Of a DNA stretch of 64,000 nucleotides, positions 33,768 to 40,041 are shown piece by piece. Under the pieces are notes generated by a model that saw only the letters and a list, made by a program, of their open reading frames with translations, had not been told where the DNA came from and did no database searches. A program made the translations under genes and the position numbers. The DNA is taken from NCBI RefSeq assembly GCF_000203815.1, contig NW_004457737.1:1550001-1614000 (forward strand), read 5' to 3'. The stretch is from Cavenderia fasciculata (Eukaryota; Evosea; Eumycetozoa; Acytosteliales; Cavenderiaceae). Each line of letters begins with the position of its first letter. Within the stretch, counting starts at the first letter, position 1.

Positions 33768-35129
33768 TTATTCTTTATTTTTCATTAATTCAGAAAGCAT
33801 CTCTAATTGTTGTAATTTCATCTGTCGTCTTTTAAAATGAATATCATTATTATTATTATGTTGTTTTTGATTATTGTTGTTGGAATTAGAATTAGAATTG
33901 GATTGTTGTTGAACTTGTTGTTGTTGTTCAACTTTTGATTCAATCTCTAACAACATTGATAATGGAATGGAAACTTTATCATTAATCCATTCAATTGTAT
34001 TATTATTGTCACTATTATTATTATTATTATTGTTATTATTATCATTGATTGGTTGTATTTTTCTAGTCGGTTGTTGTTGAGAAAACTTTGAATAGAATTT
34101 ACAATAATTGAGAGCTCTTGCATAATCAATAGATTGAACATCACCATTTCTAACCTCTCTTTCACACTTTAAAACAAGTGATGATATCCGAGTCTTTGAT
34201 TGAGATGATTGTATCATAATGTTCCATAGAAATACAACTAATTTTCTGGCTCGCATATGTATTATTCCCCATCGTATCAATCTTCTCTCGATAGATATTG
34301 GTTTAAACAAGTCTGTTTGAAGCATAGCAATCAAACTGTTGCCAATCGATTGTAACCATTCATCGGCAACATCCAGTTTCAATAGTGGCTTTAACAGCAG
34401 ATACACTAGAGGTCTCATTCTACTAAAGTTGATGGTTTGTCTTCGATTGAGTATCACTCTTTCATAGAGTATTGGAGGTTTGGCAAGTGCACTCTCAATC
34501 TTTGTTCTTATAGTATAATGATGTCTCTTCATATCCTTTAACAATGATTTGGGAATATTATTATTATTACCATTATTACCAACAATCAATCTTCTTGAAC
34601 GTGATATCATCATTATATTATTCTCTACCATCTTTTTTTCAATTGGTTCAAATGTTTGTTGTACCAATTTATCTAAAGTAAAGTACACACAAATATATAT
34701 ATAAGTATTATATTCCTCGTACACTACTTATAAGAATATAGAAGAATATACAACAAACATACCATCTATACGATACTGATTAAAAGTAAATAAAGATATC
34801 AACTTTTGAACCATATTATTCTTCTTTTCAACTCCTCCATTATTCGTCGTCGTTGTTGTTGTTGATGTAGTAACAGCAATAGCATTATCAGTTGTATTGA
34901 TTAGATGAGATCTATTACACTTATCACCATATCTACACTTTCCAAACTTTCTAAACAAGAAACATATCTCTGTACCATTGATATCATATTCTATTATCTT
35001 TGGTTCAGATGACGAAGAAGAAGTTGTTGTTGCTGTTGTTTGTTCATTATTCTTCTTACTCTTATTCTTATTCTTATTATTATTATTCCTCTTTCGTTTC
35101 TTGTTTGATTCTAATGATGTATTCATCAT
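33768..35129 (-). CDS. CCCH zinc-finger protein, unrecognised
   Basis: Two exons, 35129-34763 and 34672-33768, give 423 residues. The start is the first ATG (35129); the codon before it is GTG. A basic Lys/Arg/Asn-rich N-terminus (KKRKRNNNNKNKNKSKK), likely nuclear, precedes one CCCH finger (C-x8-C-x5-C-x3-H, with CRYGDKC and SH) at about residues 57-76. The second exon holds a helical region of about 200 conserved-looking residues (RHHYTIRTKIESAL, RMRPLVYLLLKPLLKLDVADEW), then Asn/Gln runs and a short C-terminal helix. The function is unknown; RNA binding is inferred from the finger. It is the second CCCH gene in a row. Confidence 0.75.
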
Positions 35130-35306
35130 CACCTTTACATTGTTTGATTTATTTATTTATTTATATATCTATGTACATTCGTTATCAACATCGAAATGAT
35201 TCGTTTCCCTCTCTTTTTTCACATTTTGTCGGTACTTTGAGTAAAATATTTATTGAATCAATATTTTAGTGTACAGAGATAGAATAGAAGATAAAGAGAT
35301 AAAGAT

Positions 35307-36169
35307 ATGTTTACATTCAAAGGAAATAAAGAGTATCAAGATTCTGTGTCATCATCGTTGACAGCGATTAAATACAAAGCATCGGTTGAATTACCATCAT
35401 TGTCAGATGTCGAATCAGAAGATCATAGTCAACTTCACCTACTTCCATGTTCAATCGGTCATAATGGTTATGCAAACGTAGCAACTTACTTTAAAATCAA
35501 ACAATCAGATGGTATGATATAACACATATGAGATGAAAGAGAATGAAAGATTGTTGACACTTTTACCTTTTATAGATAGTATAAATGGAGGCTATTTTGA
35601 AAGTAGTTTAAGAGGTAGAAAGCTATTGGGAAAACAATTAAATATACCAGATGATTATCAAGGTATAATATTAAGATCTGAAAATGTAAAAGATGTCAAT
35701 ATGAAGGCTGACAATAACAATAATGGTGGCCCTGCCAATAAATGGGAGGCAGTATCATTATTTAATAACTTTACATACTGGAATAGAGAAACTAAACCAT
35801 CACAAGAAGATACAACTCAACAAGCTCTTAAATGGATATCAATAGCTCAACATGTATGAATTGAATTAAATTTCCACACATGTAATAATAACCCTAACCA
35901 TTTGAAATTCTATTTCTCAGATACACCAAAAAATAGCATATGATCAAATATTGGATCTTGATAAAATGAATCAAGATACTACTACTACTACTGCGACTAC
36001 CACTACTGATACAACAACAACAACAACGCCAACTGAACCAATTAATAACAATGGAGAAAAGATAAAAGTAAAAGAAGAGATAATAGAACCAGAGTTGGAA
36101 ATTAAAAAGGAAGAAAATATTAGTTCAACAACTACAACTACAACTTCAACGACTACAAATGGAAATGGA

Positions 36170-36222
<53 letters not shown>

Positions 36223-36436
36223 AACAGTTGTGGATGAAAAGGAAAAATTAGAAAAATTAAAGGAAACTATTATCGAACAAGAAAGCAAGGAAGAACAAGA
36301 AGAACAAAAACTAAAAAAAGAAGAGGAACAAGATGGTAAAGGAGATGATCTGGAAGAACAAGAAGATGACCAAGATAGAGGTAGAGGAGAAAATGCAGAA
36401 GAAGCTAAAAGAGCTATTAAAAGAAGAAAGAATTAA
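35307..36436 (+). CDS. Ribonuclease H2 subunit C
   Basis: Three exons (35307-35511, 35576-35853, 35921-36436) give 332 residues. Residues 45-170 carry the RNase H2C signature: HLLPCSIGHNGYANV near the start, SLRGRKLLGKQLNIPDDYQG (matching FRGRxLxGxxVxxPxGxxG), then NFTYWNRETKP and LKWISIAQH. RNASEH2C pairs with RNASEH2B to support the catalytic A subunit, which removes ribonucleotides from DNA and resolves RNA:DNA hybrids in the nucleus. Residues beyond about 170 form an extension of Thr and Asn runs and Lys/Glu charged blocks ending RRKN. That extension roughly doubles the usual length of the subunit. Confidence 0.88.
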
Positions 36437-36594
36437 ATAATATTTTAATTAAAACTTATTTGGTTTGATGTGTACAAAAGTAATAATGGAAACAAGTATT
36501 GATATTGATGGCGGGTATTATTATTTAAAGATATACCCATTTTCGAACCAACATTTTTACTACTATGCATTTATTGTTGTTGTTGTATTCCTAT

Positions 36595-36623
<29 letters not shown>

Positions 36624-36625
<2 letters not shown>

Positions 36626-39292
36626 AGAGAGTTTCTAAAATATCCAATAATACTCTTTTTTGTTGGAATACTTTTAAATGGGGCATGATTGCAGAATGAA
36701 AGAAATCATCGTCACCAATGGTACATGCAACAATACTTCTACTATTTCGATGTGTTTGTAAAAAACTATATAAAATATATAATTAATAATTATTTAGACA
36801 ATCTCTTGAAACCTAACCTTTTATAAAGGATACATACTTTTTAAAGAATAAAGGTGATTTAAGGAATGAAGATACAAGTATTTTAATTTGTTGTAAAATT
36901 TCACTTGATTGACCTTCTCGAATTCCTGCCAATACCTTTAATAGTGTATTAAACTCTTCGTTGGCAGCTGGTTGGACAATAGTTGGATGAAGATTATCCT
37001 TACTTGGTCTCAAAAATTGAAAATATTTCTCTAGTATTGGTACAGCCAAAAGGAAATCCTCTATAAACAACAACAAAAATAGATTGATTAGTATATGATA
37101 ATAATATCATTTGTGATACTTCTCTTTAATAATTTAGTTACATACTTTCATATTGAGATGGAGGTTGAATACCATGTCTAATCCATATTTTAGCTGTTTG
37201 AACATTTGGTGATGCAAGTATTGGTGATAATCCATAGAAATTATTAATTTCACTATTTGCACCAGCCTCTAATAATAAACTAACTATATAGATTTTAGAA
37301 TCTTCTGATGCTTTCTATAAATATATAAATATATTAAAAAGTAAGTAAACATCCAACATATTGGTTTGAGGGAAACACTTACAAACAATGCTGTATTACC
37401 ATTTAAATATCTTTTGTTTAATGATTTTAATCTTGATTGAAAAAAGAAAAGAGAATTATGATAAATATGATATGTATAATAAAGGTTACTAATATACGAT
37501 CGATAGTACATACGATATTGATTTTAATTTATCTCTAAGAGAAACTATATCATTTGTTTTTACAATGGTCCAAAGATTTAAAGCTTTAACTCGAAGTATT
37601 GAATTGGGAGGGATTTGGACATTATTTAAATATTGGTGTACTATCAACTTTTCCAATGTATTACAATTTGTTTCTACCAAGTCTTGGATGGCTGTTTGGT
37701 AGTTTTCTTGATGTATGATATTCTTGCAATAACAGTCAATGTTTAGATGTTTTAAAGATGGTTTGATCTTTTTGTAGATACTCAATCCGAGTAGTCCGTA
37801 TATAAGTTGGTGTGAACATGCCACAGAGACACGCTCTAAATTACGACTGAGGATGTCTACCATTAGGTTGGGACCAAGATTATTGTTTTGAGCTATATTT
37901 AGATGTTTGAGACTCGGTGCAGACAGTGCCAACTTTATATCCCTCTCTTCCAACGAACACTTTTCCAATGACAATGATGTCAAAGTTGTACAATGGGCTG
38001 CAAGTTTTCGAATGACATCTCGATTCACAACCCAACTAAAATTAAAATTCAATGTTGTTACTTGTGATCCGTGTGATGTTAGAATCCTACCAACTTGAAA
38101 CTCTGAAAAATTATTTACAAATTCAAATGACATATCTTTCCAAAATGGACAATAAACAATAAACCTATTTAAAAATCTGAAAAAGAAATAGAATATTAAT
38201 ATCAAAAGGTTGTATGATTGATTGATTGATTGATTGATTCCCCTATCTTGTTACCTTGAAACATATGAAGTTCGAATTAAATCTGGAATACCAAGATTTG
38301 ATATAATATTAAATAATAATTCATTTGGTAGATCGAGTAATGATACCTTTGGAAGCATAGCAATATTAAAAGAAAACATCTTTTTCTTTTTATCTATATG
38401 CATACCATCATCTTCATCACTACTACTATTTCTTTTTGTAGTAGTATATCCATTACCAATATTATTTACAAAATCACTATCTATATCCATTAATATTCCC
38501 ATTGCATCGTCTAACAAATCATGTTTTCTTTTTGATAATAGTTTATCATTTGATGATGTTGATGATGTCGAGGTAGTTGTTATAATACTCGATGTTGATT
38601 GTTTGTCATCATCCATCATTGCCATTGCCATTTCTCTTTTCATTCTATTTAACCATTGTCTTATTAATGTTTGATCATAATATTCTTTATTTGACCATAT
38701 CTCTAATAATTTAATGAATTTTGGCTATATAAATCCATTATTCACAAACAAACAATCCAAGTTTTAATAAATCATCAAATCATCATCCAAATAACAATCA
38801 TAATAATAATAATAATAATAATACATACACATTGTTCCTCTGGAATCATAGTCATTATCTTTTTCTCGTGTAGTTCCAAAAACTCTGTTACCTTGTCTTT
38901 AAACTTGTCAATAGTATCACTATAACCAAAAAGTAAAAAGATTAATATTAGTTCTGACAAGACTTTAAGAGTAGATAGATAGATATATTGTACATACCCA
39001 TTCTTACTATGAGATAAATCCTTCATAAACAAATCAACAGCATACAATGCATTTAATATATGTTCATTTTGACAATACCTAATCGTTGACTCTATCGATT
39101 TGATATAGTAATCTATAAACTATTACGTAAATGAACGTGTCAATAGCTGCTATTGTGTGTAGTGATAATAACATAGGTTACCTTTTCATTTTGTTTACAA
39201 TGATCAACCAGTGATGTAGACAATGATTTCAATCTGTGTACCGATAGTTTACTATCTTTTACAATCGATTGTAATTCTTCTCTCCAACCCAT
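36624..39292 (-). CDS. CID / F-box / LRR / ankyrin multidomain protein
   Basis: Nine exons (39292-39182, 39119-38998, 38919-38829, 38724-38255, 38176-37514, 37431-37383, 37314-37146, 37060-36838, 36765-36624) join without a frame break to 679 residues. Residues 1-135 resemble the CTD-interacting (CID/RPR) fold of mRNA-processing factors (LNALYAVDLFMKDLSH, CPKFIKLLEIWSNKEYYD). An acidic/Ser linker follows. An F-box begins near residue 225 (VSLLDLPNELLFNIISNLGI, then SRFLNRF). Leucine-rich repeats run to about 470 (LTSLSLEKCSLEE, LKHLNIAQNN). Ankyrin-like helices follow (LNGNTALFKAS, IVSLLLEAGANSE, YGLSPI), and a final helical region completes the chain. An SCF substrate adaptor that reads RNA polymerase II CTD is inferred only from the domain names. 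Confidence 0.8.
38217..38239. repeat. GATT tract in intron 4 of the CID/F-box gene
   Basis: About six GATT units lie inside the intron between exons 4 and 5, close to the donor site. It is the same unit as at 302-337. Confidence 0.85.
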
Positions 39293-40041
39293 TGTTATTG
39301 TTGTTGTGTTTACAACTATTGTTGTGACTGTTGCTGTACAGTAGTAGTAGTAGTAGTATCACTCTCTTTCTATTCCTATTCTTCTTCTTCTCTTGTTATC
39401 GGGTTGTATCGTCGTCGTCGGTAATAACTTCATTCAGTTGTCGCGCTCTTTCTCTCCCGCCCGATCTTTCTTTTAAATTATGAGTATCAATAATAAGACA
39501 TTTGTAGTCAACTACTTTTTTGTCTCTCAAGTGCATTTCTTTTAAAAACTCATCATTCACATCCATTCATACATCCATTCATACGAGCAAATAACAAGGA
39601 AATAATTATCAATGCCCTAACCTAAAAGTTGTTTACTGCATTGATCACAATATACAAAAAAAAAAGAATAATGGATGACCGACGAACAGTCGTATCGTAG
39701 TAATCATCATATCATACATATATTATATTATTATTATTATTATTACTCAATGTAGATCTACTGAAGTTATACATTTTATCAATTATGTAATATAGAAAGA
39801 AAAGTGGTTGTTAGTTAGAGGTTTCAATACTTTGTCACTCTTTCTTCATTTTGATTAGTTGGGCTTTGTATCGGGTGATGATTTGAGCAGCAGGCGTTTA
39901 TTTCATATATATTTTCACCAATTTTGCACGATTTTTTTAGTTTTTTCGGCACACTGCTCACAGAGACAGACTCGACAGACCTATCACCTGAAGAGCGTTC
40001 ATCGTAACTTTACCTGTCACGACCCTCGCTCAGATACAAAA
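39293..40041. other. Divergent intergenic region
   Basis: Shared upstream region of the CID/F-box gene (-) and eL43 (+). It holds CAG/GTA trinucleotide runs (near 39340), a GTC repeat (39410-39420) and a GC-rich patch ctcccgcccgatc (near 39455). A G/C-richer leader with short inverted words lies just upstream of the eL43 start. No RNA gene was recognised. Confidence 0.5.

Follow-up and report, generated by a model that had tools for sequence, protein, structure and literature searches.

The CTD-interaction domain (CID) is an eight-helix right-handed superhelix, and known members of this family carry RNA-binding or coiled-coil parts. F-box receptors normally find their targets through leucine-rich repeats (LRR), WD40 or similar parts. 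KDM2 has an F-box as well, and we know of no CID in either FBXL19 or KDM2. FBXL19 is linked to CDK-Mediator at CpG islands, according to the excerpted text of PMC5997449. For the CID of Rtt103, the excerpted text of PMC5452035 describes a CTD pocket of Ile22, Tyr62, His66, Val109 and Ile112, to which Asn65 adds a hydrogen bond, and a phosphate contact by Arg108, a residue with an equivalent arginine in SCAF4/8, RPRD1A/1B/2 and CHERP. Our search of the open-licence PubMed Central literature, also made under the RPR domain naming, found no report of a protein that combines a CID with an F-box, in line with a sequence-only reading of the present locus that had taken the combination to be unreported. 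In the same literature, no mention of the gene name under which the locus is deposited, DFA_03334, was found.

The gene described here lies on the minus strand (39292-36624) of the window, a 64,000-nucleotide stretch of Cavenderia fasciculata contig NW_004457737.1 (positions 1,550,001 to 1,614,000). Nine exons had been joined in the sequence-only reading without a frame break; rebuilding them reproduced the join, the borders 38829/38724 and 38255/38176 and the 679-residue chain, as a single open frame of 679 codons followed by a stop. Each of the 8 introns is of the GT..AG type, with 62-104 bases and 19-34% GC. The model behind the codon scores drew its training data from 200 kb of the C. fasciculata genome plus the window outside 36001-40000, using 78 of 98 long open frames (the other 20 were removed by a codon-position-1 purine filter); the intron contrast set of 73 sequences is biased towards low GC, since it was chosen by motif and low GC. 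In this model, the stated frame beats both other frames in all nine exons, and seven of them stand at least 8 bits above the intron model, exons 2 and 6 being neutral. Exon 1 (39182-39292, ATG at 39292) encodes residues 1-37, the N-terminal part of the CID (+15.0 bits in frame), followed by exon 2 (38998-39119) with residues 38-78, the CID core with its LYAVD motif (+0.2 bits, with stops in both other frames), and exon 3 (38829-38919) with CID residues 78-108 (+8.3 bits). Exon 4 (38255-38724; +37.4 bits) runs from residue 109 into the F-box, which is completed in exon 5 (37514-38176; residues about 265-485; +96.1 bits) ahead of the LRR-like region. The ankyrin-like stretch begins in exon 6 (37383-37431; residues about 486-502; -1.5 bits) and continues in exon 7 (37146-37314; +28.6 bits) with an ankyrin repeat, where residues 496-525 match PF00023 below its cut-off. 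Exon 8 (36838-37060; +32.1 bits) holds residues about 559-632, and exon 9 with the stop codon (36624-36765; +11.5 bits) residues about 633-679; from about residue 560 to the end, no domain was assigned.

On the plus strand lie the two nearest genes that were recognised, one for an L37ae ribosomal protein beyond 40070 and one for RNase H2 subunit C near 35518-35856. Minus-strand open frames are present between 39396 and 40009, and the one that was scanned gave no Pfam match. Directly after the stop codon lies a GA-rich simple repeat (36595-36623, minus strand), and further on, a minus-strand open frame at 34731-35156 carries a CCCH zinc finger at 24.7 bits, above the cut-off of 20.5.

Among proteins, the rebuilt chain best matches a 708-aa entry titled "hypothetical protein DFA_03334 [Cavenderia fasciculata]", with 96% identity along the full length, and judged by this match the gene is C. 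fasciculata DFA_03334. Its UniRef label is F-box domain-containing protein, and its precomputed Pfam list holds F-box families only. The public model also joins exons 1-9 into one protein, with intron 2 retained, and treats introns 1 and 2 differently from the nine-exon reading; of its 29 extra residues, intron 2 supplies 26 and the start of intron 1 the other 3. Intron 2 (38920-38997, minus strand, 78 bases) has a length divisible by three with no stop in that frame, and in the public protein it interrupts the CID. On the public 708-residue chain the CID reaches 17.6 bits, under the Pfam cut-off of 23.9, and the N-terminal piece scores 34.2 bits when spliced (residues 1-145) against 21.6 with intron 2 kept. 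As a control, 10 other excisions of 26 residues were made in the unspliced N-terminal piece, the best of which gave 28.4 bits against 34.2 at intron 2. Four of them passed the cut-off (25.6-28.4 bits), five stayed at 17.7-21.6 bits and one left no CID; thus the score gains from shortening that stretch generally, and most at intron 2. Read as 25 codons, intron 2 scores -8.4 bits, a value as low or lower being found in 2.6% of 1267 coding windows of 26 codons. By GC alone it does not stand out, with 9.6% of coding windows equally low, and in the reverse test none of 6 open intron windows scored as high, a number that says little. Together, the codon statistics and the excision control favour removal of intron 2; judged from sequence, splicing of this intron is most likely, as is the masking of the CID by the public model. 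Intron 1 (39120-39181, minus strand) has two possible donors, GTAACC or that of the public model three codons later. With the public border, which adds three residues, the CID scores 35.3 bits in place of 34.2; both borders fit the CID about equally. DFA_03334 illustrates how a domain may escape notice when a public gene model retains an intron that stays in frame, and domains in other gene models of the C. fasciculata genome might be hidden likewise.

An N-terminal CID and a mid-protein F-box had both been proposed from the letters alone, and each passes its Pfam curated cut-off. The CID (PF04818) is matched at residues 17-131 over profile positions 13-119 of 120, with 31.1 bits (E 3e-7) on the whole 679-residue chain and the 34.2 bits given above on residues 1-145. 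Since residues 1-108 alone, with exon 4 removed, drop to 16.8 bits, the match needs exon 4. VHS and ENTH domains were considered in place of the CID and rejected, as no other Pfam family was matched up to E 10 on residues 1-145, in a search where HMMER filters drop most weak matches. A profile of an Rv2179c-like exoribonuclease at residues 111-183 (E 0.015; 15.4 bits on the whole chain, cut-off 27) was taken as chance. Among solved structures, the closest to the CID are SCAF8/RBM16 (3d9i, E 2.8e-4) and SCAF4 (6xkb, E 2.2e-3), followed by Pcf11 and Nrd1 (E 0.02-0.13). In a structure predicted for the public 708-residue protein, insert included and from a single sequence without alignment, the CID region is predicted as helical, but at a mean pLDDT of 39.3, with none of the 708 residues at 70 or above, a confidence too low for the model to bear on the fold.

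Aligned through SCAF8, on which we place the Rtt103 residue numbers as we take them to correspond, the places of the CTD pocket and of the phosphate contact hold Tyr63, Asp66, Leu67, Lys113, Leu114 and Ile117. The YxxD found in SCAF8 and in L003, another CID locus of this genome, is matched by Tyr63 and Asp66, and the last CID helix of SCAF8 by Leu114, Ile117 and Trp118. Leu67 sits where SCAF8 has Ser, in place of the Ser/His of this pocket position, and Lys113 aligns with the phosphate-contacting arginine of Rtt103/SCAF4/8-type CIDs. From these residues the CTD pocket looks mostly kept, with Lys rather than Arg at the phosphate contact. The 31.0 Mb assembly (21 contigs) gave 5 other CID matches in unspliced frames, a set that does not include the CID of the study gene, which spans four exons. 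The three of these loci that were aligned (L004 and L005 being left out) score 14.6 (L001, the best), 4.6 and 1.7 bits against the study CID, and SCAF8 scores 22.8 bits, so the aligned CIDs of the same genome are more distant than SCAF8. Read by eye, an RRM-like stretch can be made out in the open frames of L002, and those of L003 resemble Pcf11.

The link between CID and F-box lies in exon 4, which is one open frame. It starts with PKFIKLLEIW, containing the last CID helix (FIKLLEIW) according to the SCAF8 alignment; a low-complexity linker follows, and then residues 237-264 of the F-box (237-278), roughly two thirds of that domain. Thus, the fusion needs no splice junction between the two domains; splicing is still required to bring in the remainder of the CID from exons 1-3. 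A two-gene run-on is ruled out by the presence of the CID end and two thirds of the F-box in this single frame. The F-box (PF00646) at residues 237-278 scores 36.4 bits (E 4e-9, profile positions 1-42 of 43, cut-off 20.5), and 37.0 bits on residues 109-284, that is exon 4 with about 20 residues of exon 5.

The LRRs and ankyrin helices of the sequence-only reading fared less evenly; solved structures point to a Skp2-like LRR region and to one or two ankyrin repeats, and both parts stay below their Pfam cut-offs. For the F-box piece and what follows it, the best solved match is Skp2 (1fqv, E 4e-4, added up from weak F-box and LRR pieces), and FBXL2 matches at E 0.2. The LRR profiles remain under cut-off (LRR_6 at 11.9-12.8 against 23.4 bits, LRR_4 at 14.0 against 27, LRR_At5g56370 at up to 17.0 against 27), and for that reason the protein is not filed as an FBXL proper. 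Ankyrin profiles likewise stay below, with Ank (PF00023) at 14.5 bits on the whole protein and 18.7 at best against 21.1, and Ank_2 at 19.5 against 27.3. Residues 481-679 have 197 matches up to E 1 among solved structures. Within the best 60 of these 197, solved ankyrin repeats are matched; 4qfv passes with one stretch on its own (E 2e-9), many target repeats add up to the values of 4rlv (E 9.1e-17) and 1n0r (E 6.7e-9), and the matches span about 45-65 residues, which corresponds to one to two repeats and no long array. The domain reading is thereby supported, as a CID and an F-box with a weak LRR part and a short ankyrin stretch. We consider it highly probable that the locus is a single genuine gene with this CID, F-box, LRR-like and short ankyrin architecture.

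Few relatives came to light. The search with the whole protein returned the gene itself as sole match among 7990 scored candidates, those sharing most words, and so did residues 1-145 up to E 10 among 131 candidates. With residues 226-679, the gene itself and two ankyrin-rich proteins were found (7998 scored, again those sharing most words), and neither of the two has a CID or F-box in Pfam up to E 1. The search required shared 5-residue words and a candidate length of 0.55 to 1.75 times the query, and diverged dictyostelid orthologues may therefore be missed. Consequently the empty CID search speaks only against close relatives, and judged from these sequences a single species is known to hold the combination. 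P0003, an ankyrin-rich database protein from outside the window (906 aa, ENA contig), carries C-terminal Skp1 domains (PF03931, PF01466) and, if real, is an unusual ankyrin-Skp1 fusion. Within its own genome, the whole protein gave at least 11 matches from 10 scored candidates, 8 of which are the gene itself. The best non-self match among the scored candidates is L014 (G000:C10:20369-20806), which matches residues 224-374 at E 2.6e-4 with 29% identity; judged by eye, it looks F-box/LRR-like and another locus, L015, LRR-like. A further one, L016, shows 33% identity over residues 493-537 (E 0.26).

What could such a protein do? The sequence-only reading had placed an SCF adaptor on transcribing polymerase, which we keep as a hypothesis. 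The most likely role would be that of substrate receptor in an SCF (Skp1-cullin-F-box) ubiquitin ligase, in which the F-box binds Skp1 and the CID attaches to the heptad repeats of the RNA polymerase II tail; the LRR/ankyrin part would pick a substrate among proteins near the polymerase, or perhaps the CID itself would present Rpb1. We give about even chances to such an SCF receptor with a CTD-docking CID; its expression, its binding to Skp1 and to the CTD, its ligase activity and its substrate we infer from the sequence. Counted against the SCF-docking reading are the single species, Lys113, Leu67, the neutral exons 2 and 6 and the sub-cut-off LRR and ankyrin parts. More tentatively, a dictyostelid receptor might ride the elongating RNA polymerase II through its built-in CID and bring about a CTD-code-dependent ubiquitination of the polymerase or its companions. 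If this is true, the phosphorylation state of the CTD would be coupled to ubiquitination without a separate adaptor, an arrangement that we did not find for any eukaryote in the open-licence literature searched.

Chief among the alternatives is a CID fold that has lost CTD recognition, in an otherwise ordinary F-box receptor whose N-terminal bundle would serve as a scaffold or bind another peptide. We regard this as less likely, yet it has the Lys at the phosphate contact and the Leu at the pocket position in its favour, together with the weak likeness to those three CID loci, out of five others in the genome, that were aligned (14.6 bits at best, L001). On the other hand, the retained Tyr63 and Asp66 speak against such a loss, as do Leu114, Ile117 and Trp118 in their alignment with the last helix of SCAF8. 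Moreover, Pcf11 binds the CTD. The excerpted text of PMC5452035 has both yeast Nrd1 and Pcf11 without an equivalent of the Rtt103 arginine.

Perhaps the F-box protein would instead act as a tether at the transcribing polymerase, with or without Skp1, so that recruitment takes place without ubiquitination and degradation. FBXL19 provides a precedent for this, being an F-box protein that recruits transcription machinery in the excerpted text of PMC5997449, but Skp1 binding would be expected in our case because the F-box scores well above its cut-off, and we hold such a tether to be improbable. Very improbable, finally, is a gene-model artefact in which exons 1-3 lie outside the mRNA of the F-box gene and the CID is spurious, for which the neutral exon 2 and the different public reading of introns 1 and 2 could be invoked, but the public model likewise runs exons 1-4 into the F-box, two thirds of the F-box sit in the same exon as the last CID helix, and excision of intron 2 gave the top CID score of the 11 tried (34.2 against at most 28.4 bits).

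Returning to the preferred reading of a CTD-docking SCF receptor, the closest likeness on the CID side is to SCAF4/SCAF8 (PF04818). The LYxxD motif and the FIKLLEIW helix of the study protein align with SCAF8, whereas the phosphate-contacting Arg of these proteins is Lys in the study protein. With respect to CID proteins at large, what sets it apart is the F-box as fusion partner. Like FBXL receptors and Skp2, its best solved match, it has an F-box followed by LRR-like sequence; unlike them, it has a CID before the F-box, an ankyrin stretch after it and LRRs that stay below cut-off. L014 of the same genome shares the F-box/LRR-like region, but no CID or ankyrin was recognised by eye in its open frames. 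FBXL19 and KDM2 are likewise F-box proteins tied to the transcription machinery, as far as the excerpted texts of PMC5997449 and PMC6753492 go. FBXL19 and KDM2, in which no CID is known, reach genes through CpG islands.
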